DNA from: Haloferacaceae archaeon
Lineage (GTDB): Archaea; Halobacteriota; Halobacteria; Halobacteriales; Haloferacaceae
Direction: 5' to 3'
DNA: 15,540 nucleotides
NCBI GenBank assembly: GCA_018609965.1
Contig: JAHENP010000205.1
Span: 1-15,540, forward strand
A model generated the notes under the pieces. The model searched no databases and was not told the DNA's origin. It saw nothing but the letters and a program-made list of their open reading frames with translations. Below are positions 1,089 to 13,851 of this stretch, in pieces. Position numbers and translations under genes: made by a program. Position 1 is the first letter of the stretch, and the number at the start of each line of letters is the position of its first letter.

Positions 1089-2015
1089 ATGGAGATCGTC
1101 GTCTTCGGTGCCGGCGCGCTCGGGAGCCTCGTCGGCGGACTGCTCGCTCGCGAACACCCGGTCACTCTCGTCGGCCGTGACCCACACGTCACTGCCGTCC
1201 GCGAGGACGGACTCCGCGTCACGGGCGCCGTCGAGACGACCGTCCACCCGCAAGCGACGACGGACGGCACCGGACTCGACGCCGACCTCGCGGTCGTCAC
1301 GGTGAAAGCCGGCGACACGGCGACCGCCGCCGAGCAGTTGGCGACCGGAGATGTCGAGCTGGTGTGGTCGCTGACGAACGGGCTCGTCGAGGAACGACTC
1401 TGCGAATCACTCGGGGACCGGGTTCTCGCCGGCACAGCAACCTACGGGGCAGAGCTACCCGAACCCGGCGTGGTCTGTTGCACGGGAGTCGGTGAGCTCC
1501 GTGTCGGCGAACTCGCGTGGGGCGTGAACAACCACACAGACGGCGACTCGGAGCCGTCACGCCGAGCCCAGCGAACCGCGGCGGCGTGTCGTGTTGCCGG
1601 TCTGAGGGCGACAGCCGACCCGGAGATGGCGACGCGTCGCTGGCGGAAGCTTGCGGTCAACGCCGGAATCAATGCCGTCACCGCGCTCGCGCGGGTCAAG
1701 AACACCGCCCTGTTGGAGCCAATCTCTCCAGTTGCTGCACGTGCCGCTCGGGAGACAGCACGTGTCGCGCGCGCGAGCGACACCGACCTTGCCGGCGAGG
1801 CAGCTGTCGAGGCGGTCGAAACGGTGGCAGCCGCGACGGCAGACAACCAGTCGTCGATGCTTCAGGACGTACGTGCTGGCCGTCCGACAGAAGTCGACGC
1901 GATCAACGGTGCGGTCGTCCGGCGTGGCGAGGCGCTCGGCGTCGAGACTCCGACAAACCGGACGCTCACGGAACTGCTCCGGCTCTGGGCGGCGGCCAAC
2001 GCGAACACGGACTGA
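1089..2015 (+). CDS. panE: 2-dehydropantoate 2-reductase (ketopantoate reductase)
   Basis: Reduces ketopantoate to pantoate with NADPH in the coenzyme A pathway (cytosolic, 308 aa, normal family length). The N-terminal Rossmann fold starts at once with VFGAGALGS (5-13). The second strand ends in VGR (28-30), where Arg suits the NADPH 2'-phosphate. Residues matching the known catalytic set are visible: a TNG motif (96-98) and K187 in WRKLAVNAGINAVTAL, corresponding to the general-acid Lys. SSMLQDV (255-261) and the TEVDAINGAV block with E268 correspond to substrate-binding Ser and Glu positions. A GTG at 1083 is also in frame. ATG 1089 was preferred because the protein then begins directly with strand beta-1, and a weak TATA-like GTTACT (1061-1066) sits about 27 bases upstream. 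It is a single gene, divergent from thrC and followed by a long non-coding gap. The identification is strong; the exact start is less certain. Confidence 0.9.
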   Translation: MEIVVFGAGALGSLVGGLLAREHPVTLVGRDPHVTAVREDGLRVTGAVETTVHPQATTDGTGLDADLAVVTVKAGDTATAAEQLATGDVELVWSLTNGLVEERLCESLGDRVLAGTATYGAELPEPGVVCCTGVGELRVGELAWGVNNHTDGDSEPSRRAQRTAAACRVAGLRATADPEMATRRWRKLAVNAGINAVTALARVKNTALLEPISPVAARAARETARVARASDTDLAGEAAVEAVETVAAATADNQSSMLQDVRAGRPTEVDAINGAVVRRGEALGVETPTNRTLTELLRLWAAANANTD

Positions 2016-2145
2016 ACGCGCACACGTCACTACCCTCTGAACGAAAATGTTTCACACGCGCCACACCCTCTCACCCGTCGCCGAGTGGTAACTCGTAGCT
2101 GAGCACGTAGTTTAGTTACTTGTAGACAATTTTCTGACGGAAGGG

Positions 2146-2183
2146 GTTGTGACATGGCCTGTCACGGGTAGCGTGACCACAAC
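2146..2183. promoter_or_regulatory. Candidate operator: three alternating GTGAC half-sites in a larger dyad
   Basis: GTGAC (2149-2153), GTCAC (2161-2165) and GTGAC (2173-2177) recur exactly 12 bases apart in alternating orientation. The first pair extends to a perfect dyad, GTGACA-N5-TGTCAC. An outer inverted repeat, GTTGTG (2146-2151) with CACAAC (2178-2183), encloses the set. It ends right before the TATA-like box, the usual place for an archaeal activator site. The repeats are visible in the sequence; regulatory function is inferred. Confidence 0.45.
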
Positions 2184-2192
2184 TTACATATA
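2184..2192 (+). promoter_or_regulatory. TATA-like box A of the protease gene
   Basis: TTACATATA in an otherwise GC-rich genome. A start site about 25-27 bases downstream falls near 2211-2217, giving a short leader of roughly 25 bases before the ATG at 2240. The leader contains AAGGA (2230-2234), a modest Shine-Dalgarno-like stretch five bases before the start. Confidence 0.5.
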
Positions 2193-2239
2193 CCAAACGG
2201 TCTATAGGGGAATTGCAGACTGAAGTGCCAAGGATAACG

Positions 2240-5200
2240 ATGAACTTGCGAAAAAAAGCTATCACACTGCTCTTGACCGTGTCGATGGTGCTCGCCCCCG
2301 GCGCTGGGGCGGTCGCCGCGGCACCCGGAGCACTGACAGACGACGCATCGACGACAGACGACGTAACGTTCGAACAGGGGGTCGTCGACCCGGCCGGTGA
2401 GGTGACGTTCACCGACAAGGGTGAGATCGATCCGGCTCTCACGAAGACTGACGGAACAACGACCGCGGTCGTGCGCCTCGACAGTGCCGACCAGTCACAG
2501 ATTGCACAGCTCGACCGTGAGGCGAGCGTCGACACGCTCAAGTCTCACGCCGCCGAGTCGCAGCGGAGTCTCCTCCGGTTTGCCAGTCAGCGTGACGGGA
2601 TCGAGGTGAAACAACGGTTCTGGATCGTCAACGCCGTCGTGGTCGAGATCGACACCAACGAGGTCCAGCTCCAGACTGTGAGCCGAATCCAGGGTGTCGA
2701 CCGGATTCACCAGAACTTCGAAGTGAACGTTCCGGAGCCGAAACAACAACGCCTCTCCGACGAGGCGGTCGACACTGACAACGGTGTCAACACAACCTAC
2801 GGGCTCGACCAGATCAACGCGCCCGAGGTGTGGTCCGAGTTCAACACCAAGGGTGAGGGCGTCGACGTCGCCGTCCTCGACACGGGTGTTGACCCGGACC
2901 ACCCGGACATCGACATCCAGGACGACCACTTCGTTCAGGTCGACTCTGAGGGGAACGTGGACAACGTGGCACCGTTCGACGACGAGGGGCACGGGACCCA
3001 CGTCTCCGGGACGGTCGCTGGCGGGAACGCGTCCGGTGAGTACATCGGTGTCGCACCCGGCGCGACGCTGTGGCACGGGAAGGTGCTCGGCAGCGACGGC
3101 GGCGGCACGTTCACCCAGATCGCCGGCGGAATGGAGTGGGCCGCGAGCCAGTCCGAGATCGACGTGGTGTCGATGAGCCTCGGCGCGAGCGGTTACTTCC
3201 CCGAACTGATCGAGCCGGTGCAGAACCTCGAAGCAGCCGGAAAGATCGTCGTCAGCTCCTCGGGCAACAGCGGCGCGGGAAGCTCCGGGACGCCCGGCAA
3301 CATCTACGAAGTGATGGCGATCGGTGCCAGCAACGAGGCTGGCGACATTGCGTCCTTCTCCAGCGGTGAGACGGTCGACACGAGCAGCGCGTGGGGCAGC
3401 GACGCGCCGTCCGACTGGCCCGACGAGTACACCGTCCCCGACTACGCCGCGCCCGGTGCAGACGTGAAGTCTGCACAGAACGGCGGCGGCTACACGGAGC
3501 TGTCCGGTACGTCGATGGCGGCTCCGCACTTCGCAGGTGCGATGGCGCTGATGCTCGCGGCCGGTGGTGAGAGCCTGGACAAGTCGACGATCCAGGAAGC
3601 ACTGACCGACACGGCGACCGCGCCGCCGAACGCGGACCCGACCCGGTACGGTGACGGGATCATCGACGTGCAGGCCGCAGCACAGCAGGTCTCGCTGAGC
3701 CAGTCGATCTCCGGTGTCGTCACGGACACGAACGGGAACCCCGTTCCGGAGGCGACGGTGACGACGAGCCAAGGCTTCGAGACGGTCACGGACAAGACCG
3801 GCGGCTACACCGTGCTCGCAGAGCCCGGTGAGGTGCAGGTGAACGTCTCCGGGTTCGGCGTCGAGTCGGTCTCCGAGACGGTGCAGGTCACCGAAAACGA
3901 GACGGCGACGCTGAACGTCACGGCCACGCCGACGGTCGACGTGGTGCCGCTGACGCCCCAGCCCGAGTCCGTTGAGGGTGGCGCAGAGGTGAGCGTCACT
4001 GTCGATGTCGCGAACGTCGAGTCGTACTCCGCCGAGCTGGCGGACGGCTTCGACCAGTCGAACGCGACCCTGTACGTCGACGGCACCGAGGTGCCGTTCG
4101 GCACGACCATCGAGTTCGACCAGGCGGTCGACGGCCCGGTGACGGTGACCGTCGAGACGGCCAACGGCTCCAGCGGGGAGTTGAGCGTGGTCCACACGTT
4201 CGGTGGTCTCGGTGAGAGCCTCGAAGTGACGACCGGCCCGACCAGTGTGTTCGCTGACCTGCAGACTGTCGGTGTCGTCGACGACAACAACGAGTACGGC
4301 AGCGACATCGCGGCCACACTCGCCGAGCAGCTTCCGGCGGGCTACGAGATCGATGTCGTGGACAGTGAGACGGCAATCGACTCTGTGAGCACGTACGACG
4401 CGTACGTGGTCCAGAACATCGAGGACGCCAACGCGGAGGCGTTCGCCGACGCGACCAGCGGCTACGAGGCCGGTGCGGTGTACCTCGATCAGTACGGTAC
4501 CGGTTCGAACGGGATCGAAGCACGCTCGGCCGCCATCGGCGACCCAGCCGAGACCAACCAGGAGTTCAGCGGTGACAACCCGTACCTGGTGAACTACCCG
4601 GCCGACCACCCGTTGTTCGAGGATGTCGCGAGCGGTGGGCCGATCCAGCTCCACGCAGCGAGCTTCGCCGACCGGACCACGTTCAGCGACACGGACGCGG
4701 CCGTGCTCGGTGAGGTTGCCTCCGGTGCGGACGGCGCAGCCGAAGGGAGCGGACTCGCAGTCGACGAGGAGCGCTGGGACATCCTGGCCGCCTCGCTGGG
4801 GTACACCTCCTTCGTCGGACAGGGCGACTACACGACCGAGGCAGACGTGCTCCTCGGGAACGCAGTCGAGACCGCGGCGAACCCGCCGGGCCCAGCCGGG
4901 ACGATCTCGGTGACGAACGAGACGATCGCGCCCAGCGAAAACACCACCGTCTCTCTCCAGACGACCGCCGACAGTGTCTCTGGGTACGAGGTGACGGTGA
5001 CGTTCGATCCGCAGAAGCTCCAGGTCACTGACGTGTCCGGTGTCGACATGGCCGACCCGGTCGTCAACCTGGACAACGAGGCCGGTGAACTCGTGCTCAC
5101 GCAGGCACAGGCCTCGCCGGTCGACGGCGCCGAGTTCGCCCGGATCGACTTCGACACGACTGCCATGGAGAAAGGTGAGTCGGCGACAATCGACGTGGTC

Positions 5201-5554
5201 GGCCCCGCCTCCGACGTGTACGACACGAACGGTTCGGCGTACATCTCGGAGGCCGAGCCGGGTGAAGTCGACGTGCTCCAGGCGGAGCTCGGTGACGTCA
5301 ACGCCGACGGCGAGGTCACCGCTGGTGACGCGGTCATCGTCCAGCGGTACATCGCCGGGCTGCCGACAGACACGCCCGACAGTCAGGTCGCCACGCTGGC
5401 CGACCTGAACGAGGACGGTGCCGTCACGTCCGCAGACGTGACCGCCATCCTCCAGCTGGTCGCCAACAACAACGAGAGTGACGACCAGCAGTCGAGCGTC
5501 GAGCAGGAGACGACTCGGTCCGTCGACGGACAGACCGCAGTCGTCGCCGACTGA
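2240..5554 (+). CDS. Secreted subtilisin-like (S8) protease with cohesin and dockerin modules
   Basis: A secreted serine endopeptidase of 1104 aa from ATG 2240. An in-frame ATG at 2213 adds nine residues before a clear signal peptide (1-28, RKK then a hydrophobic core, AAA-P) and was rejected. Domains in order: an I9-like propeptide (about 75-165); the S8 catalytic domain (about 188-490) with D214 (LDTGVD), H251 (HGTHVSG), oxyanion N343 (SSGNSG) and S425 (GTSMAAPH); a carboxypeptidase-regulatory-like beta domain (about 499-570); an Ig-like region (about 573-655); a Rossmann-like glutamine-amidotransferase-fold region without Cys (about 668-880); a cohesin (about 886-1014); and a dockerin (1018-1076). 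The dockerin has two calcium-loop repeats, DVNADG...D (D1019, N1021, D1023, D1030) and DLNEDG...D (D1055, N1057, D1059, D1066). I see no cysteine and no C-terminal membrane anchor or sorting motif. Signal type is Sec-like (R-K, not R-R), unlike many halolysins. The next gene encodes an anchored cohesin. The catalytic assignment is firm; the docking role is inferred. Confidence 0.93.
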   Translation: MNLRKKAITLLLTVSMVLAPGAGAVAAAPGALTDDASTTDDVTFEQGVVDPAGEVTFTDKGEIDPALTKTDGTTTAVVRLDSADQSQIAQLDREASVDTLKSHAAESQRSLLRFASQRDGIEVKQRFWIVNAVVVEIDTNEVQLQTVSRIQGVDRIHQNFEVNVPEPKQQRLSDEAVDTDNGVNTTYGLDQINAPEVWSEFNTKGEGVDVAVLDTGVDPDHPDIDIQDDHFVQVDSEGNVDNVAPFDDEGHGTHVSGTVAGGNASGEYIGVAPGATLWHGKVLGSDGGGTFTQIAGGMEWAASQSEIDVVSMSLGASGYFPELIEPVQNLEAAGKIVVSSSGNSGAGSSGTPGNIYEVMAIGASNEAGDIASFSSGETVDTSSAWGSDAPSDWPDEYTVPDYAAPGADVKSAQNGGGYTELSGTSMAAPHFAGAMALMLAAGGESLDKSTIQEALTDTATAPPNADPTRYGDGIIDVQAAAQQVSLSQSISGVVTDTNGNPVPEATVTTSQGFETVTDKTGGYTVLAEPGEVQVNVSGFGVESVSETVQVTENETATLNVTATPTVDVVPLTPQPESVEGGAEVSVTVDVANVESYSAELADGFDQSNATLYVDGTEVPFGTTIEFDQAVDGPVTVTVETANGSSGELSVVHTFGGLGESLEVTTGPTSVFADLQTVGVVDDNNEYGSDIAATLAEQLPAGYEIDVVDSETAIDSVSTYDAYVVQNIEDANAEAFADATSGYEAGAVYLDQYGTGSNGIEARSAAIGDPAETNQEFSGDNPYLVNYPADHPLFEDVASGGPIQLHAASFADRTTFSDTDAAVLGEVASGADGAAEGSGLAVDEERWDILAASLGYTSFVGQGDYTTEADVLLGNAVETAANPPGPAGTISVTNETIAPSENTTVSLQTTADSVSGYEVTVTFDPQKLQVTDVSGVDMADPVVNLDNEAGELVLTQAQASPVDGAEFARIDFDTTAMEKGESATIDVVGPASDVYDTNGSAYISEAEPGEVDVLQAELGDVNADGEVTAGDAVIVQRYIAGLPTDTPDSQVATLADLNEDGAVTSADVTAILQLVANNNESDDQQSSVEQETTRSVDGQTAVVAD

Positions 5555-5597
5555 CCGCGCTGGCTGGGGACCGTCCTCGCCGGCAGCGACAACGACG

Positions 5598-5606
5598 TTT
5601 TTTTCT
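5598..5606 (+). terminator. T-tract terminator after the protease gene
   Basis: Seven consecutive T followed by CT lie 43 bases past the protease stop, the form of archaeal intrinsic terminators. It sits only 28 bases before the ATG of the cohesin gene, so it could end or attenuate readthrough. The same T-rich stretch is also about where a box A for a leaderless cohesin transcript would lie. Confidence 0.5.
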
Positions 5607-5633
5607 TCGCTGATCTGTAACCTCCGCGCTGGG

Positions 5634-6389
5634 ATGAACAAAATCACTGCCGCCGTCCTCGCGGGGTGTCTGCTCGCGGCTGGCGCGCTCGCGGCCACGA
5701 GCACAGTCGCGGCTGCCGGTGTGACACAACAGGACCAACAGAACGGGACGATCACCATCGCGACGGAACAGACGGACGAGACGCTCGTCGTCACGCTGTC
5801 TTCGTCCGGCGAACTGGCCGGCTACCAGGCGAACCTCACCTACGATCCGGACGTGGTGCGGTTCCGCGAGGCGACTGGGCTCGACTTCGCCGACCCGGTG
5901 GTGAACAACCGGACTGCCGGCTGGGTGTTCCTCACGCAGGCGGCCGTAGACAGCACCCAGGACCCGGATCTGGTGCGTGTTACGTTCGATGTTGTCGGCA
6001 ACGGTGATCCGGCCATCGGGTTCAACAACTCGAACACGCTGCTCAACAACGCCGACGCCGAGGTCGTCGACCCGGGCTACGAGACCAGCGCGGTCGAACA
6101 GGTGACCGTGACCACTCCTACGCCGACGGTGACACCGACGCCCACCGACTCGCCAACGGTGTCCGGGGACGACACGACCGAGTCACCGACTGTGACCGAC
6201 GCCACCAGTTCGACCACGACGGCGACGACGGTGACGACCTCCTCTGGACCGGACGACAGCGCCACCACGACGGAGACGCCCGACGGTGACGACGGGTTGT
6301 TGTCGAATCAGTTCCTCCTCGGTGTCGGCGCGGCTGTCGGGGTTGTGGTGCTCCTCGGGGTCGGTGTCCTTCTCGGTCGGCGGCTCTGA
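5634..6389 (+). CDS. Membrane-anchored single-cohesin surface protein
   Basis: A 251-aa protein from ATG 5634. In-frame codons upstream were ignored because the N-terminus here is a textbook signal peptide (1-28, MNK then a long hydrophobic core ending AAA). Residues 37-160 are a cohesin-type beta-sandwich. They match the protease cohesin at the GY.......YDP strand, the block ADPVVN (86-91) and the LTQA strand (100-103). Residues 160-220 are a Thr/Ser/Pro/Asp-rich stalk with TPTPTV repeats, suited to O-glycosylation. Residues 226-248 form a Gly/Val/Leu membrane span ending in RRL at the C-terminus, so the cohesin would face outward. It likely serves as a cell-surface receptor for dockerin proteins, first of all the protease encoded 79 bases upstream on the same strand. 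An LAGC string at 9-12 resembles a lipobox but lies too early in the signal peptide to be a convincing lipidation site. Its dockerin partner is inferred. Confidence 0.85.
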   Translation: MNKITAAVLAGCLLAAGALAATSTVAAAGVTQQDQQNGTITIATEQTDETLVVTLSSSGELAGYQANLTYDPDVVRFREATGLDFADPVVNNRTAGWVFLTQAAVDSTQDPDLVRVTFDVVGNGDPAIGFNNSNTLLNNADAEVVDPGYETSAVEQVTVTTPTPTVTPTPTDSPTVSGDDTTESPTVTDATSSTTTATTVTTSSGPDDSATTTETPDGDDGLLSNQFLLGVGAAVGVVVLLGVGVLLGRRL

Positions 6390-6404
6390 CCCACCACGGT
6401 TCGA

Positions 6405-6418
6405 CCGGCTTCAGCCGG
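6405..6418. terminator. Possible shared terminator hairpin between convergent genes
   Basis: CCGGCT-TC-AGCCGG is a perfect six-base inverted repeat located 16 bases after the cohesin gene stop and 17 bases before the convergent DUF4097 gene stop. It could act for both strands. No T-tract follows, so this is a weak call. Confidence 0.35.
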
Positions 6419-6434
6419 CTACTCTCTCGTGTTC

Positions 6435-7364
6435 TCACTCCTCGACAGTGATCGAGCCGACGTGTGTCGACACCGACAGCGCCGGCCCGCCCTCGCCGAA
6501 CGTTCCCTCGACGCGAACCGTGCTGAGTCCGTGCGCGCTCCCCAGTGCCGGGGCGGTCACAGAGCCGACGCTCGTCGACGCCGTCACAGACGCGTTCAGT
6601 CCCGGGCCGGGGCGGAGCCGCACGGCTCCCGTCGCGCTCTCGACGGTCGTCGCTCCACGGACGGCGGGCACGTCGGCGTCGATTCGCCCCGCAGTCGTCG
6701 CGAGGTCGTCGATCCCAACCGGGTCACGGACAGTGATCCCGCCGGTCGTCGCCCGGGCGGCCACGTAGCCGTCGACCGACTCCGCAGAGAGGTGGCCGTT
6801 CGTCGACGAGAGCTGTACGTCGCCGTCGACGCCGCGGACGGTCACGTCCCCGTTCGTCGTCTCTGCGTGCAACGCTCCTGCCGTCTCGATCACCTCACAG
6901 CCGCCGTTGGTCGCCTCGACACGGTGGAGAGTAACGCCGTGGGCCGTGCACTCCCCGTTGGTCGTCGCGGCGTGTTCGATGTCGAGGTCTGCGGGCACGG
7001 TCACGTCGAGGTCGACCCGAACACTCCCGTCCGTCTCCCCGTCGTGTTCGACGCGGACGGCCAACGGCTCCCCGTCGCCGCCCTCAGCGACGAGCTGGGC
7101 GTTCGCCAACGCACTCTGGCTGGTCGCGCTGGTCTCTGCGACGACCTGAACAGAGTCGGTGTCGTGTGCCTTCTCGGGGTCGTCTGCGCCGTTTGCGCCG
7201 TGTGTCCCGTCGGCGTCGCGTCTGCCGTTGCCGTTCCCGTGTGTGTCGAGTGTCAGGTCTCCGTTGACCGTCTCGACGGTCAGCGCCGTCGGTCGGTCGA
7301 ACACTCGCGTCTCCGTCTGGTGAACGTCGTGTGTGCCGGCCGAGGACAGAATCTCCTGTAACAC
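6435..7364 (-). CDS. DUF4097-family beta-repeat protein
   Basis: A protein of about 309 aa of the DUF4097/putative adhesin type, which folds as a stack of short beta strands. The N-terminal pattern QTETRVFDRPTALTVETVNG is typical of haloarchaeal members. The body repeats the motif (T/S/A)TNG about every 19-25 residues (TTNGEC, ATNGGC, TTNGDV, STNGHL, then TTGGI). The molecular role is unknown in the family. There is no ATG near the N-terminus. GTG at 7364 was chosen because a TATA-like TTCATACTC (7394-7386) lies about 27 bases upstream, consistent with a leaderless mRNA. A second GTG nearer the conserved region (before FDRPTAL) is possible. No signal peptide is evident from either start, so it may be cytoplasmic despite the adhesin label. 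It is downstream of and on the same strand as the DUF2270 gene, with a 100-base gap. Confidence 0.75.
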   Translation of the reverse strand: MLQEILSSAGTHDVHQTETRVFDRPTALTVETVNGDLTLDTHGNGNGRRDADGTHGANGADDPEKAHDTDSVQVVAETSATSQSALANAQLVAEGGDGEPLAVRVEHDGETDGSVRVDLDVTVPADLDIEHAATTNGECTAHGVTLHRVEATNGGCEVIETAGALHAETTNGDVTVRGVDGDVQLSSTNGHLSAESVDGYVAARATTGGITVRDPVGIDDLATTAGRIDADVPAVRGATTVESATGAVRLRPGPGLNASVTASTSVGSVTAPALGSAHGLSTVRVEGTFGEGGPALSVSTHVGSITVEE

Positions 7365-7464: not shown

Positions 7465-8277
7465 TCACTCGCGCGGCGGGCGGATGTCCTCCGTCCGGAG
7501 TTCGTCGTGTGCCCGCCAGGTTCGCGGTCGGAGCGCGACGAGCGTGGCGGCCGCGAACGCGACGACGACGGTCGCCGTGACGACCACCCCCGGTGCCGCG
7601 CCGACGGCGGCACTGCCGGGCCACCGATCCGGGCCGAACGCGGTCACACGCAACACCCACGCACCGCTCACGATGGCGAGCAGCGGGAGGTACACCCGCC
7701 GGAGCCGGTGTGCGACGGCCTCCTCAGCGGAGACCCGCAGCGCCGGCTGGTGGTAGTCGTCCGCCAGCCGTTCCCGCCAGTCGCTTGTCGGCTCCCGGCT
7801 CGGGTCCAACCCGACCGCGAACACGTTGCGTTGGAGCGTCCGCACCCGCGACCGCCACGCGTCGTACGCCCGGTACCGGCGCGCCTCGACGACCAGGAAC
7901 AACCCGACCGCCAGGTTGCCGATCAACAACACGTAGTGTGGGTTCGACGGGTTCGAGAACGCCCACGTCAACACTGCCGCCAACAACAACACCGCCCAGT
8001 TGGTGGTGCGGTCGAGCCGTTCCCGCCAGAACTTCATCCGGTGGACCTCCCCGCGGTAGAGGTGCGCGAGCGCCGAACTCGGCCCCATCTCACCCTCCAA
8101 CAGCCCGCGACCGACCGCCGGGTCGCCGGCGCTCGCGCCCGGTGGCTGGTGGTTTCCCTGCTCGCCGCTCTGTGATCCTGTCTCGCCGCCTCGCCGCGAC
8201 TCTGTCTCGCCGCCGTCCGGCTCTGTCCGGTCGGATTGACCGGTCTCGACCGTACCGGCCTCGTTCGTGTCGGCCAT
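7465..8277 (-). CDS. DUF2270 family integral membrane protein
   Basis: A 270-aa predicted membrane protein of unknown function. After a long low-complexity acidic N-terminus (1-60, Gly/Glu/Thr/Ser/Gln-rich) comes the DUF2270 signature: HLYRGE (72-77), R-L-D-TTNWAV (88-96), a membrane helix (95-107), SNPSNPHY, a second helix (116-131), then EARRYRAYDAWRSRVR (131-146). Two further helices lie at about 195-211 and 228-249. The C-terminus is charged (RTEDIRPPRE). ATG 8277 was chosen; a GTG at 8280 directly precedes it. An AT-rich island at 8381-8412 likely holds the promoter, with a leader of about 75-100 bases that contains a possible 25-codon ORF. The DUF4097 gene follows on the same strand and may be co-transcribed. 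Confidence 0.85.
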   Translation of the reverse strand: MADTNEAGTVETGQSDRTEPDGGETESRRGGETGSQSGEQGNHQPPGASAGDPAVGRGLLEGEMGPSSALAHLYRGEVHRMKFWRERLDRTTNWAVLLLAAVLTWAFSNPSNPHYVLLIGNLAVGLFLVVEARRYRAYDAWRSRVRTLQRNVFAVGLDPSREPTSDWRERLADDYHQPALRVSAEEAVAHRLRRVYLPLLAIVSGAWVLRVTAFGPDRWPGSAAVGAAPGVVVTATVVVAFAAATLVALRPRTWRAHDELRTEDIRPPRE

Positions 8278-8382
8278 CACTCCCTCTCGACGCTGGGGTC
8301 GTCACTCGTCGGGTCGCCTGCTGTCCCCGTCTCCGGCACGTCGAGTGTGCTCACACGAGGATGTTCGGGCCCGCTGCACAAG

Positions 8383-8774: not shown

Positions 8775-8866
8775 CACGAGGGCAGCGCGGTGACCATCAC
8801 GAGGGCAGCGCGGCGGCCCTCACGAGACCAGCGCGGCGGCGTTCACAACACCAACGCGGCGATCTC
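8775..8866. repeat. Tandem 23-base repeats at the 3' end of the SpoIIM-like gene
   Basis: Four consecutive 23-base units start at 8775, 8798, 8821 and 8844. The first three share CACGAG..CAGCGCGG, and the fourth, inside the coding end, is the most diverged. Each unit is preceded by T, so each junction carries TCA (a TGA stop on the minus strand). Only the one at 8843-8845 ends the gene; the others are downstream copies of the C-terminal coding tail. Confidence 0.8.
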
Positions 8867-10768
8867 CGGAGTGAGGAACGCCTCGACGAGGGCGGCGACG
8901 ACCAACAACACCGCAGCGCCACCCAGTACGTGTGCCGTCTCGTGGAGTCGGTCGGCGACGCTCCCGGCGTCCGTCTCACCCCGCACCGCCCGCCAGCCGA
9001 CACCCGCGAGGTGGAGCCCCAACCCCCAGGTGACGGCCAACACCGGAATCTCGATCACGCCGTGGGGGGCGACGAGCGCGACCAGTGCCCGGAGTTCGAA
9101 CGCGCCCGCCAGCGCGCCGACGACCGCGCCGTTGAACGCGGCACTGACCGCCGCCGGCACGCCGAACGCCAGCCCGCTGTAGACGCTGCCCGCGGCCACG
9201 AGCCAGTTGTTGGCCGCGATGTTGACGAAGTCGTTCACCGGGAGCGCACCGAACACGTTGCCCACGTCCGACGGCGCCGGCACTGCGACCCCCGCGGGCG
9301 CGGTGACGGCCCACCCGCCGGCCAACCCGAGCGTGAACACTGCGAGCGCGCCGACGACCGCCGCCGGCGTGGCGAGAACGAACTCGCAGAACGCGCGCAA
9401 CCCCCCACCGAACGCGCGCCGGAGCCGTTCGCCGACCCCGTCCCGGTCACGCACCGGCACCGTCGGCGCCGAGTCCGTGACACCGGTCGACTCGACACCA
9501 CTCCCCCTCGGCTCGGTCGCGGTCGACTCGACGCCCGTCTCCGTCGCGGTCGGTTCGACAGTCGACTCCGTCGCGGTCGGTTCGACAGTCGACTCCGTCG
9601 CAGTCGGCTCGAGGCCGGTCTCCGTCGGTTCGTCGTCGAACGCCGTCGACTCGCCGTCGAAGGCCGTCGGCTCGTCAGTAGACGGTGTCGCCCCGCTGCC
9701 AGACGCCGTCGGCTCGTCAGCCGGCGACTGCGTCAGGCGATCCGGCTCCGTTCGCGCGCCGGCGTACACGGCGGTCGCGAGCAGGTCGGCGAACGGAGCG
9801 ACGAACAACGGCGTGACGAGCGCGCCGAGACGGGCGGCACCGACAGCACCGAGCACGCCGGCGACGATGCCGGCACCGACGTAGAGTACGGCAACGACCA
9901 ACACGAACCCGACGGCGGTACCGAGCTGGTAGCGGAAGACACCCAAACTCGCCCGGACGGCACCGAACACGCCCCGGTCGTCGACGACGACCGCCGGCCC
10001 CGCAAACGCCAACAGCCCGAGCCCCACGAGCGTGACGAGAACGCCGACAAGCGCGAGCAGGACCCCGACCAGTGCGGCAGCAGGCTGTGTGGTGGCCAAC
10101 GAGAACGCGAGCACCACTGGACCACCGACGAAGACGACCCCGAGCAGGCTCTTCAACAGGAACAACCCGGCGAACGTCTGCCACCGGCCAGCGCCACGCA
10201 CCCCTGCAGTCAGCGCCCGGTGAGCGGGGTCACGCTCTCCACTCGACCCACCCGGTTCGTCCCCGACCGCGAGTGTGGCCCAGACGGTCGTCTGTGTCAC
10301 CGCGCTGGCCACGCCGCGCGCGAGCACGAGCACAACCACCGAGACCACGCCACCAGCGAGGAGCAACGCCCCGACCTCGGGGACGGCGAGCCCATCGATT
10401 GCGGTCTCTAACTCCGGCGGCACCCCCGGCACGGGACCGCCGGGAGCGGTGTCGGCGGCTCCACCCCGTTCCTCCAACAACGGCGCGGCGGCCTCCAGTG
10501 CAGGCTCGATCCGTCCGGTCGCGGCGAGCAACGCCACGGCCGCCCCGACGGCGAGTAGCAACGGCGCTCGCGCCACGCTCGCGGTGCCGAGTGCGAGAAG
10601 ATACGCCGGCAACACCGCCGTCGGGAGGTCGTACAACACCCGTCTGGCGGCGCTTGCGGCGTCAGACACCGACGGCGTCCGTTCGTCCAACGGCGGGAGC
10701 GAGACGGCCGTCGGCACTGACTCTGTGGTCCGTCCGTCGTCCGGCGGATCGTCGCGTGTGGAGGACAC
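8843..10768 (-). CDS. Multi-pass membrane protein with SpoIIM/DUF95-like C-terminal domain
   Basis: A 641-aa membrane protein from a GTG start at 10768. The N-terminal half (about 45-340) has six or so Ala/Val/Leu/Gly-rich helices. It resembles the haloarchaeal family of large membrane proteins distantly related to glycerophosphodiesterase membrane domains, though I assign this only tentatively. Residues 345-440 are a low-complexity Thr/Glu/Pro/Ser linker with a nonapeptide EPTATESTV repeated about three times (387-413). The C-terminal part (about 455-641) matches SpoIIM/DUF95 proteins: NIAANNWLVAAGSVYSGLAF (516-535), FNGAVVGALAGAF (545-557), then APHGVIEIPVLAV (567-579), the hallmark PHG.xE segment, and two last helices. 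The function in archaea is unknown; bacterial SpoIIM acts in membrane remodelling during engulfment. The combination of two membrane domains joined by a repeat linker is notable. The gene ends in tandem 23-base repeats. GTG is the best start: no ATG lies further upstream in frame. Confidence 0.75.
   Translation of the reverse strand: MSSTRDDPPDDGRTTESVPTAVSLPPLDERTPSVSDAASAARRVLYDLPTAVLPAYLLALGTASVARAPLLLAVGAAVALLAATGRIEPALEAAAPLLEERGGAADTAPGGPVPGVPPELETAIDGLAVPEVGALLLAGGVVSVVVLVLARGVASAVTQTTVWATLAVGDEPGGSSGERDPAHRALTAGVRGAGRWQTFAGLFLLKSLLGVVFVGGPVVLAFSLATTQPAAALVGVLLALVGVLVTLVGLGLLAFAGPAVVVDDRGVFGAVRASLGVFRYQLGTAVGFVLVVAVLYVGAGIVAGVLGAVGAARLGALVTPLFVAPFADLLATAVYAGARTEPDRLTQSPADEPTASGSGATPSTDEPTAFDGESTAFDDEPTETGLEPTATESTVEPTATESTVEPTATETGVESTATEPRGSGVESTGVTDSAPTVPVRDRDGVGERLRRAFGGGLRAFCEFVLATPAAVVGALAVFTLGLAGGWAVTAPAGVAVPAPSDVGNVFGALPVNDFVNIAANNWLVAAGSVYSGLAFGVPAAVSAAFNGAVVGALAGAFELRALVALVAPHGVIEIPVLAVTWGLGLHLAGVGWRAVRGETDAGSVADRLHETAHVLGGAAVLLVVAALVEAFLTPEIAALVL
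9507..9610. repeat. 27-base coding tandem repeats in the linker of the SpoIIM-like gene
   Basis: A 27-base unit (TCGCGGTCGG TTCGACAGTC followed by GACTCCG) is repeated nearly perfectly, with degenerate flanking copies on both sides. Because 27 is a multiple of three, it encodes repeats of EPTATESTV without shifting the frame. Confidence 0.8.
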
Positions 10769-11628: not shown

Positions 11629-11659
11629 GCAGTGTGAGGGTGGCGTACCGAGACACACC

Positions 11660-11690
11660 GTACATATTAAGTGTTAATAAGGAAATGTAC
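11660..11690. promoter_or_regulatory. Nested dyads overlapping the ABC operon promoter
   Basis: TATTAAGTGTTAATA (11665-11679) is a 15-base dyad with perfect six-base arms around GTG. It lies inside a second inverted repeat, GTACAT (11660-11665) with ATGTAC (11685-11690). The TTAATA arm (11674-11679) sits 24-29 bases before the ATG at 11703, where box A is expected, so a protein bound here would compete with TBP. This suggests repressor control of the importer. The symmetry is seen; the binding protein is unknown. Confidence 0.55.
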
Positions 11691-11702
11691 GGCAATACGA
11701 GC

Positions 11703-12884
11703 ATGACGCACTCTAGGCGGGGAGCGCTCTCCCTGACGGGCGCGGCGTTGGCAGCCGGGTTGGCCGGCTGTGTGACCAGCAGCGACGACACGGCGACGGC
11801 CGCCGGCGACGGGTCGGGTGAGGGCTCGGAGTCCGGCGGCAACTCGGGCGCGGAGACGTACGAGGTCGGCCACGGCGACTCTCAGACCACCGTCTCGGCG
11901 GCGTCGTTCCCGGAGAAGCTGTTCGTCTACGCGGTCCAGACGGGGTGGTCGAACTGGGGTGCACAGATGAAGGCGTTCGAACAGGAGTACGGCGTCCCGT
12001 TGAACGACGACCAACGCACCTCCGGCGAGGCGTTGTCGGACCTGCGGGCCAACTCACAGGACCCCACACATTCAGCGTACAACGGCGGCTACACGTACGG
12101 TATTCTCGCGATGGAGGACGGACTGACACAGGCGTACAAGCCGAAAAACTGGGACAAGGTGCCCGAGAAGCTGAAGACAGACAACGGCCACATGACCGCC
12201 ACGCGGCGGATGACGACGACGGTCACCTACCGGAAGGACATCTACGAGGAGGAAGGCATCGAGCCGCCCGAGACGTGGGAGGATCTGCGTCGCGAGGAGA
12301 TCGCCGCGAAGACACAGTACCAGCCCCCCAACGCCGCGGTCGGGCTGGCGGGCGCGATCTCGATCAACAACGCCTACGGCGGGAGCCTAGAGGACGTGCA
12401 GCCGGTGATCGACTACTACAACGACGTGAAACAGAAGGGCGCCGTCTTTGCGGGCAACGTCGAACAGAAGTTCACCAAAGGGGAGGTCCACACGTTCGTC
12501 GAGTACGACTACACGGGGTTGGACCTGAAGTACAACGCCGACTCAATCGGGGAAGACCAGGTGGAGACGCGGCTCCTGACCGGCCCCGACGGGGAGAAGG
12601 GGGCGCTCAACCAGCCGTACGGCTACGGGATGCTGAAAGGGGCGCCGAACCCGGAGGCGTGTAAGCTGTTCATGGACTACGTGCTCTCCTTGGAAGGCCA
12701 ACGGAAGTTCCTAGACGCGTTCGTCCGCCCGATCCGGGCGCCGGAACTGGAGATGCCCGAACAGTTCCCGGCCCAGTCCCGGTACGAGGAGACGGAGTTC
12801 CAGGTGGACTACACGAAGCTGGTGAACGAACAGGAGTCGATCATCAGCGAGATCGGCCAGGGTGTCGGGCTGACGGGTTACTGA
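11703..12884 (+). CDS. ABC importer substrate-binding lipoprotein
   Basis: A 393-aa extracellular solute-binding protein of the family-1 type used by POPT-class importers (iron, polyamine, phosphonate, thiamine and similar ligands). The N-terminus SRRGALSL (4-11) is a twin-arginine signal, followed by a lipobox LAGC with lipidated C23 and a Ser/Gly/Asp spacer (24-51): a Tat-exported, lipid-anchored haloarchaeal binding protein. The mature domain shows TVTYRKDIYEEEGIEPPETW, the hinge-region motif typical of these families, and GQRKFLDAFVRPIR near the C-terminus. ATG 11703 is preferred over ATG 11685 (six residues longer) because the TTAATA box is at leaderless distance; both give the same signal. 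It is first gene of a four-gene operon, with permease 1 one base after its stop. The ligand cannot be read from the sequence. Confidence 0.85.
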   Translation: MTHSRRGALSLTGAALAAGLAGCVTSSDDTATAAGDGSGEGSESGGNSGAETYEVGHGDSQTTVSAASFPEKLFVYAVQTGWSNWGAQMKAFEQEYGVPLNDDQRTSGEALSDLRANSQDPTHSAYNGGYTYGILAMEDGLTQAYKPKNWDKVPEKLKTDNGHMTATRRMTTTVTYRKDIYEEEGIEPPETWEDLRREEIAAKTQYQPPNAAVGLAGAISINNAYGGSLEDVQPVIDYYNDVKQKGAVFAGNVEQKFTKGEVHTFVEYDYTGLDLKYNADSIGEDQVETRLLTGPDGEKGALNQPYGYGMLKGAPNPEACKLFMDYVLSLEGQRKFLDAFVRPIRAPELEMPEQFPAQSRYEETEFQVDYTKLVNEQESIISEIGQGVGLTGY

Positions 12885-12885
12885 G

Positions 12886-13851
12886 ATGTCCACGCTCGAT
12901 TCGGAGTCCCTGCGCCGGACGGCGGTTCCGGAGACAGAACGGGACCGGGAACGCCGGCGGATCGCGCTCCTGTCGGTGCCGTTCCTGGCGCTCGCGACGT
13001 TCGGGGCGTTCGTCCCGTTGGCGCAGATGCTCCGGATCAGCACCTCCCAGTCCAGTTTCGCCGCCGAGGGGTTCACCCTGGCCGCCTACCGAGAGCTGTT
13101 CGCGTCGATGGTGGCGTATCTCCCGGTCGTCGGGGACGTACTCGTCGCGGACGTGAACCCGGTGTACGGGGTCGTTGTCTGGAACTCGTTGTGGTTCGGC
13201 GCGCTCACGACCGTCGTCAGCGTCGCCTTCGGCGTCTGTCTGGCACACACGCTGGAGAAGTACGACCTCCCGTTTGAGGGAACGATCGTCACACTTCTGT
13301 CGTTCCCGATCAGTCTCCCCGGGATCGTCGCGGCGTTCATGATGATCGTGTTGTTCGGCACGACGGGCGTGTTGTCGAACGCACTCGCGTTTCTCGCCGG
13401 CACAGAGGTCGACACCGTCGCCCTGACGGGCCAGCCGTCCGGCACCACCAACGCAGTCGTCGGGTTGTTCTTCGGCTACCTCTACTCGATGATCCCGCGG
13501 GCGACGTTTCTGTTGCGAGGGACGTACGCGGAGGTGAACGGTGACGCCGAGGCGGCCGCCCGGTCGTTGGGTGCGGGGCCACTGGAGACGTTCTGGCACG
13601 TCACCCTCCCGCAGATCCGGCCGGGGATTGTCGGTGCCGTGATCCTCACGTTCCGCACCGCGTTGGCCATCTTCGGCACCGTGCTCGTGTTGAAGGCGTT
13701 GTCGGTGGTGACGTTCCGGTTCGACCAGGAGATCCAGGTCGGCTTCGACCTGCCGATGGCGTCGGCGCTGGCGGCGGTGTTTTTCGCGTTCACGCTCGCG
13801 TTCACGTTCCTCGGACTCCGGTTCACCAGCGCGGAGGTGAGTGAGGCGTGA
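12886..13851 (+). CDS. ABC importer permease 1 (POPT type)
   Basis: A 321-aa inner permease subunit. A charged cytoplasmic N-terminus (1-25) is followed by a helix at about 28-47. An extracytoplasmic loop (about 50-98) precedes five further helices in the core (about 99-121, 133-156, 188-210, 246-270 and 292-312). The EAA loop that contacts the ATPase is clear at 222-248: AEAAARSLGAG, then LPQIRPGI. Its ATG comes one base after the binding-protein stop, so translation is probably coupled. The stop overlaps the start of permease 2. Confidence 0.88.
   Translation: MSTLDSESLRRTAVPETERDRERRRIALLSVPFLALATFGAFVPLAQMLRISTSQSSFAAEGFTLAAYRELFASMVAYLPVVGDVLVADVNPVYGVVVWNSLWFGALTTVVSVAFGVCLAHTLEKYDLPFEGTIVTLLSFPISLPGIVAAFMMIVLFGTTGVLSNALAFLAGTEVDTVALTGQPSGTTNAVVGLFFGYLYSMIPRATFLLRGTYAEVNGDAEAAARSLGAGPLETFWHVTLPQIRPGIVGAVILTFRTALAIFGTVLVLKALSVVTFRFDQEIQVGFDLPMASALAAVFFAFTLAFTFLGLRFTSAEVSEA
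13833..13840 (+). promoter_or_regulatory. Strong Shine-Dalgarno deciding the GTG start of permease 2
   Basis: GGAGGTGA is a full match to the archaeal 16S rRNA tail (UCACCUCC) and lies seven bases before GTG 13848. This supports GTG over later ATG codons. Confidence 0.7.

Follow-up and report, generated by a model that had tools for sequence, protein, structure and literature searches.

A subtilase gene and an anchored-cohesin gene

The stretch of DNA analyzed here (the window) comprises positions 1–15,540 of contig JAHENP010000205.1 of a Haloferacaceae archaeon (assembly GCA_018609965.1). On its forward strand, a gene at 2240–5554 encodes a 1104-residue protease of the S8 (subtilase) family that ends in a cohesin–dockerin tandem, and the next gene, at 5634–6389, encodes a 251-residue membrane-anchored protein with a single cohesin. 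Both proteins begin with a signal peptide, as judged by eye.

The Peptidase_S8 domain of the protease (residues 205–473, 2852–3658; Pfam, E = 8e-45) has Asp, His and Ser in conserved motifs. The residues D214, H251 and S425, which we take from general knowledge of the family to be the catalytic triad, occupy columns that are invariant in all 32 proteases of the conserved pairs described below. A carboxypeptidase-regulatory-like domain follows (residues 489–562, 3704–3925; Pfam, E = 7e-12), and near the C-terminus lies a type I dockerin (residues 1017–1069, 5288–5449; Pfam Dockerin_1, E = 8.5e-13, and 2.3e-13 in a second search). Its two EF-hand-like calcium loops, with D/N ligands, read DVNADGEVTAGD (residue 1019; 5294–5329) and DLNEDGAVTSAD (residue 1055; 5402–5437). 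Beyond the signal peptide, the highest 19-residue Kyte–Doolittle mean is 1.15, too low for a membrane span. The protein is thus as the original prediction, made from the sequence alone, had described it: a subtilase with a complete triad, no membrane anchor and a C-terminal dockerin with two intact calcium loops. A protease carrying a dockerin alone was rejected, since a cohesin of its own (4886–5284), overlooked in that prediction, adjoins the dockerin on the N-terminal side.

The second gene also has the predicted composition, namely one cohesin (5733–6107), a Thr/Pro-rich stalk (6090–6299; 36% Thr and 11% Pro) and a C-terminal membrane span (6315–6377; mean hydropathy 2.6) followed by GRRL. 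A PGF/archaeosortase signal at this C-terminus was rejected, as there is neither a profile match nor a PGF motif, and so was a multi-cohesin scaffoldin in the window, where the anchor holds one cohesin. The set that the original prediction regarded as the minimum for docking an enzyme on the cell surface therefore consists of one dockerin and two cohesins, not of one of each.

The Pfam search proposed with that prediction recovered the dockerin, but both cohesins score below the PF00963 cut-off (23.3 and 21.4 versus 24.1 bits; E = 1.2e-4 for that of the protease). The identification of the two cohesins consequently rests on fold: structure models of both match solved cohesins, including that of Archaeoglobus fulgidus (PDB 2xdh). 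The cohesin of the protease is also detected by our family cohesin profile, of which it was itself a member. A profile of the cohesin–dockerin tandem matches solved dockerins, among them 8x39 and 8x3a, whose chains are named 'Serine protease' and which, we guess, are the dDoc_0689 protein of Clostridium thermocellum.

Conservation of the pair in haloarchaea

To follow the pair in other genomes, we made a cohesin profile out of 16 family members, searched 391 genomes of the class with it (E ≤ 1e-4), retrieved the stretches around most matches and annotated them with three profiles. Cohesins were matched in 69 genomes. The pair, meaning an S8–cohesin–dockerin gene with a single-cohesin gene immediately downstream, occurs with this gene order in 32 of the 391 genomes, spread over 12 genera and four families, a conservation that supports the original prediction. 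The retrieved loci together with the window hold 32 open reading frames (ORFs) of the S8–cohesin–dockerin type outside Halovivax, and the cohesin gene lies directly downstream of 30 of them. The two exceptions are a second copy at locus L056, which lies just downstream of a cohesin gene, and the ORF at L057, with no such gene in the stretch retrieved. On plasmid NZ_CP100467.1 of Halomicrococcus gelatinilyticus, the pair is annotated as 'S8 family serine peptidase' and 'cohesin domain-containing protein', and the Halorubrum sp. T3 protein P0029 shares its core sequence with the protease at L059, a locus that contains the pair.

Every one of the 32 pair proteases matches Peptidase_S8 and Dockerin_1, and the Pfam cohesin model matches 13 of them (E ≤ 0.01) and 15 of the 31 complete anchors. 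A clear C-terminal hydrophobic span is found in 30 of these 31 anchors, that of L060 being weak (1.42). A PGF motif near the C-terminus is typical of archaeosortase substrates. Such a motif occurs in 17 of the 32 anchors, 14 (including that of the window) lack it and one is truncated by its contig; five of the 31 complete anchors match the PGF-CTERM model TIGR04126 at E ≤ 0.01. That the cohesin is kept while the type of anchor varies suggests that the conserved purpose is to hold the cohesin at the membrane.

Of the 32 pair genomes, 22 have exactly one dockerin (E ≤ 1e-5), and in 20 of those the profile finds exactly two cohesins. If the dockerin has a cohesin partner at all, the simplest assumption is that one or the other of this pair of cohesins fills that role.

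Cohesin genes beside other cargo

Outside Halovivax we found 61 cohesin-only ORFs, and a dockerin gene lies directly upstream on the same strand in 55 cases. As a genome of about 3,500 genes has only a handful of dockerin genes, simple arithmetic puts the chance of such adjacency well under 1%. The neighbor is an S8 protease at 30 of these ORFs, a calcineurin-like phosphoesterase at 21 and another protein at four (L054, L082, L117 and L118). The six ORFs lacking a counted dockerin neighbor are those of L111–L115 and one phosphoesterase locus. At L117, a PhoX-type phosphatase with a weak dockerin match (3950–6613, reverse strand) adjoins the cohesin gene (3157–3903, reverse strand).

Phosphoesterase–dockerin genes and the anchored-cohesin genes that they overlap or abut would make up a second haloarchaeal docking pair with a different cargo. 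At loci L087–L108, all 22 enzymes match Metallophos and 21 match Dockerin_1 (E ≤ 0.05); 20 of the gene pairs overlap, and in 19 the overlap is 4 bases long. Neither Pfam (E ≤ 0.05) nor the family cohesin profile detects a cohesin within any of the 22 phosphoesterase proteins. This class was not among the members from which the profile was built.

An archaeal precedent

The original prediction pointed to an adjacent pair in A. fulgidus, and such a pair exists. In genome G500, residues 278–434 of a 506-residue ORF match 2xdh (E = 2.3e-94), and the next ORF downstream on the same strand encodes a 190-residue cohesin protein with the C-terminus STPGFELLLAV. These two ORFs fit A. fulgidus ORF2375 and ORF2376. 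The ORF2375 dockerin (432–506) binds the ORF2376 cohesin (29–162) with calcium, both in native gels and on Escherichia coli cells displaying the cohesin (PMC9705933).

The window has the same layout: its first gene ends in a cohesin–dockerin tandem, and the adjoining gene downstream on the same strand encodes a C-terminally anchored protein with one cohesin. The differences lie in the cargo and the anchor. ORF2375 has a match to the beta-propeller repeat PD40 (E = 1.2e-5) and none to S8, the family of the first gene in the window; ORF2376 has a PGF-type C-terminus, whereas the anchor in the window ends in a plain span. Among ORF2375 and seven large proteins of related archaea, all eight match Cohesin and Dockerin_1 at E ≤ 0.01 (four of the Dockerin_1 matches falling under the Pfam cut-off); three carry PD40, two LamG-type domains, three neither and none S8. 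In a phylum-wide sample, Pfam cohesins are present at E ≤ 1e-4 in 146 of 392 genomes. The ORF2375-type sets and the breadth of cohesins in the phylum indicate that the layout is old in archaea and that, within the range examined, the protease cargo is haloarchaeal. The window pair is a protease-carrying variant of this known two-gene system, and the suggestion of a wholly distinct system does not hold, the more so as a dockerin-bearing subtilase of Halobacterium was listed in 2008 (PMC2605481). Archaeoglobi and methanogen-type loci (L144–L156) contain a cohesin–dockerin protein, some with PD40 or LamG, together with a small cohesin protein with a C-terminal span, and several of them also hold a small protein with dockerin-type loops.

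A model for surface docking and its alternatives

From the observed domains, folds, gene order and conservation we infer binding, surface location and chaining as follows. The subtilase would be secreted, and its C-terminal dockerin would attach in a calcium-dependent way to the cohesin of the anchor protein, itself held to the cell membrane by its Thr-rich stalk and C-terminal span. The protease would thereby be retained at the surface rather than lost by diffusion. Its own cohesin would offer a further site for docking. The simplest ligand for that site is the dockerin of a further molecule of the same protease, and chains of proteases could then extend outward from the anchor. Calcium-dependent docking of the subtilase at the cell surface is very probably what the module achieves, and to the full reading, in which the dockerin sits on the anchor cohesin and the protease's own cohesin is a second site, we assign a probability of about 0.8. 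Docking by the neighboring cohesin, the part of the original proposal that stands, is well supported by the gene order, the span in 30 of 31 anchors, the pairs with other cargo and the binding measured for the A. fulgidus proteins.

The dockerin might instead bind chiefly the cohesin of the protease itself, with the anchor in a secondary part. Binding to another copy would give a soluble multimer, binding within one chain a closed form. The two domains occur together in 32 of 32 pair proteases, although the selection rule sets this number, and in a mirror-tree comparison their distances correlate at 0.81. We nevertheless consider this arrangement unlikely: the anchor gene has been kept beside the protease in 32 genomes with its span in all but one complete copy, a partner of this type also accompanies the 22 phosphoesterase proteins, in which no cohesin was detected, and the interaction measured in A. 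fulgidus is between the dockerin of the first gene and the cohesin of the second (PMC9705933). A tree was built from 143 cohesins, with some Halovivax domains included twice; in it the anchors form two groups with no enzyme-borne cohesin inside them. Enzyme-borne and anchor cohesins thus look like separate kept lineages, but not firmly so, since support at the deep nodes is 0.28 to 0.71. It is also conceivable, though very improbable, that cohesin and dockerin are substrate-binding or stabilizing domains and that the neighbors do not interact. Dockerins of haloarchaeal glycosidases and of a glycosaminoglycan lyase have been described as substrate-binding (PMC10963439, PMC13260240), but adjacency in 55 of 61 cases across S8, phosphoesterase and other cargo, the intact calcium loops and the measured A. 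fulgidus pair (PMC9705933) speak against such a role here. We give slightly less credence still to an anchor cohesin whose partners are other dockerin proteins and not the protease; a dockerin-like protein encoded on contig C336 of the window's genome, and an assembly that is only 74% complete, leave room for such partners, but 22 of the 32 pair genomes have a single dockerin at E ≤ 1e-5.

Several observations count against surface docking by the anchor, or lessen the force of the evidence for it. The reverse display of the A. fulgidus pair, with the dockerin on the cell and the cohesin free, failed (PMC9705933). Dockerins are found in 131 of the 391 genomes (Dockerin_1, E ≤ 1e-5; none of 14 control genomes was positive) versus 69 with cohesins, so that many haloarchaeal dockerins have no detected partner. 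The cohesin profile was built in part from anchors known to adjoin dockerin proteases, which favors finding the S8 class. The module is patchy, being present in one of three other searched genomes of the window's genus. The mirror-tree correlation of the dockerin is higher with the protease's own cohesin (0.81) than with the anchor cohesin (0.70), the first two lying on one polypeptide; the third correlation is 0.77, and with all values between 0.70 and 0.81 the partners are not told apart. The dockerin-like C336 protein (locus L005; 551 residues, 1486–3141, reverse strand) matches at E = 0.023 and has, as read by eye, a cohesin-like domain ahead of its dockerin-like end. Divergent dockerins of this kind can escape the E ≤ 1e-5 threshold, on which the count of one dockerin per genome therefore depends. 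Finally, the 79-base gap between the two genes of the window contains a run of seven Ts (5598–5604), a possible archaeal terminator, so the anchor gene may be transcribed separately; runs of at least five Ts occur in 14 of 32 orthologous gaps.

The remaining genes examined in the window (6435–7355, 7465–8280 and 8843–10768 on the reverse strand and 11634–13851 on the forward strand) encode a DUF4097 toastrack protein, a DUF2270 membrane protein, a SpoIIM-family protein, and an ABC transporter solute-binding protein and permease. In their Pfam assignments we saw no connection to docking.

Comparison with known systems

A 1999 paper by Bayer reportedly refers in its title to cohesins and dockerins in non-cellulolytic archaea as an 'enigmatic vestige'. 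The pair suggests a concrete, testable function for them, and more generally that cohesin–dockerin pairs are an archaeal means of holding enzymes (proteases, phosphoesterases and perhaps PhoX phosphatases) at the surface. Dockerins of haloarchaeal enzymes may likewise dock rather than bind substrate where a cohesin partner exists, and salt-stable docking pairs could serve enzyme display.

The Halobacterium subtilase with dockerin repeats in the 2008 survey, NP_280653.1, is like the window protein a haloarchaeal S8 protease with Dockerin_1, but the text of PMC2605481, as far as available, names no cohesin or partner gene. C. thermocellum dDoc_0689 is an S8 protease with dockerins, one of which prefers the cell-bound ScaD cohesin, and surface retention has been proposed for it; unlike the window protease, it is part of a cellulosome and has two dockerins, and the available text mentions no cohesin of its own (PMC12484212). 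The ScaO-like protein WP_128706311.1 of Acetivibrio mesophilus likewise combines an S8-peptidase-like domain with a C-terminal Coh1–Doc1 in one chain, but is bacterial and cellulosomal and has FN3 and galactose-oxidase-like domains (PMC11557425). Cohesin–dockerin proteins of anaerobic methanotrophic archaea (ANME) are, like those of the window, archaeal and non-cellulosomal, and include scaffoldin-like proteins with up to five cohesins; their common dockerin proteins are ABC-transporter substrate-binding proteins, and no protease array is named in the text available (PMC9012536). The mucinolysome resembles a cellulosome and acts on a substrate other than cellulose; its scaffoldins carry as many as 12 cohesins, and dockerin peptidases are among its components, but it is bacterial and consists chiefly of glycosidases (PMC12997984). 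The window pair itself is no cellulosome, its anchor having one cohesin and its cargo being an S8 protease rather than glycoside hydrolases. In the open-access literature searched, as far as its text was available, we found no description of a haloarchaeal cohesin–protease pair or of a Halovivax scaffoldin.

Multi-cohesin islands in Halovivax

Proteins with several cohesins were found only in Halovivax loci. Pfam detects cohesins in three of five Halovivax genomes (31, 16 and 7 matches, E ≤ 0.01) and in neither of the other two. The proteins P0036, P0037 and P0038, assigned by NCBI to H. limisalsi, H. cerinus and H. gelatinilyticus, are contained in ORFs of genomes G222, G070 and G372 when compared from residue 31. 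In G222, an island at 76519–112592 of contig C1 (loci L046, L047 and L137) encodes eight dockerin-bearing S8 proteins; in total it has 10 proteins with dockerins and 30 cohesins. Its scaffoldin has 2087 residues and 14 cohesins (Pfam, 1.4e-83) with a mean pairwise identity of 78%, and its PGF_CTERM match, at 23.4 bits, lies just under the cut-off of 24.5. G070 has an 8-cohesin protein with five S8 proteins, and the smaller G372 set has two. The string GTSM(A/S)(A/T)PH is missing from seven of these 15 S8 proteins and GHGTH from one more, so not all of them need be active.

The G222 island is, on its domain content, a candidate archaeal 'proteolysome', a term from the original prediction that fits these multi-cohesin islands better than it does the minimal pair of the window. 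We lean, with little more than even confidence, towards regarding the window pair as the smallest version of an archaeal proteolysome at the cell surface. The full version would be that of Halovivax, in which a scaffoldin carrying as many as 14 cohesins and ending in a PGF-type C-terminus would hold an array of subtilases, many with cohesins of their own for further tiers. If this is right, the Halovivax array would be a protease machine of cellulosome scale, extending the cellulosome principle both to proteolysis and to Archaea. According to the available text of PMC9012536, no large scaffoldins were known from archaea with cohesins and dockerins, and the 14-cohesin protein exceeds the maximum of five cohesins reported there for ANME. 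Away from the scaffoldin island, at 545–580 kb of the same G222 contig (L051 and L052), lie genes for three proteins of more than 2000 residues with C-terminal dockerins; a scan of one of them showed PQQ propeller, PKD and CARDB domains.

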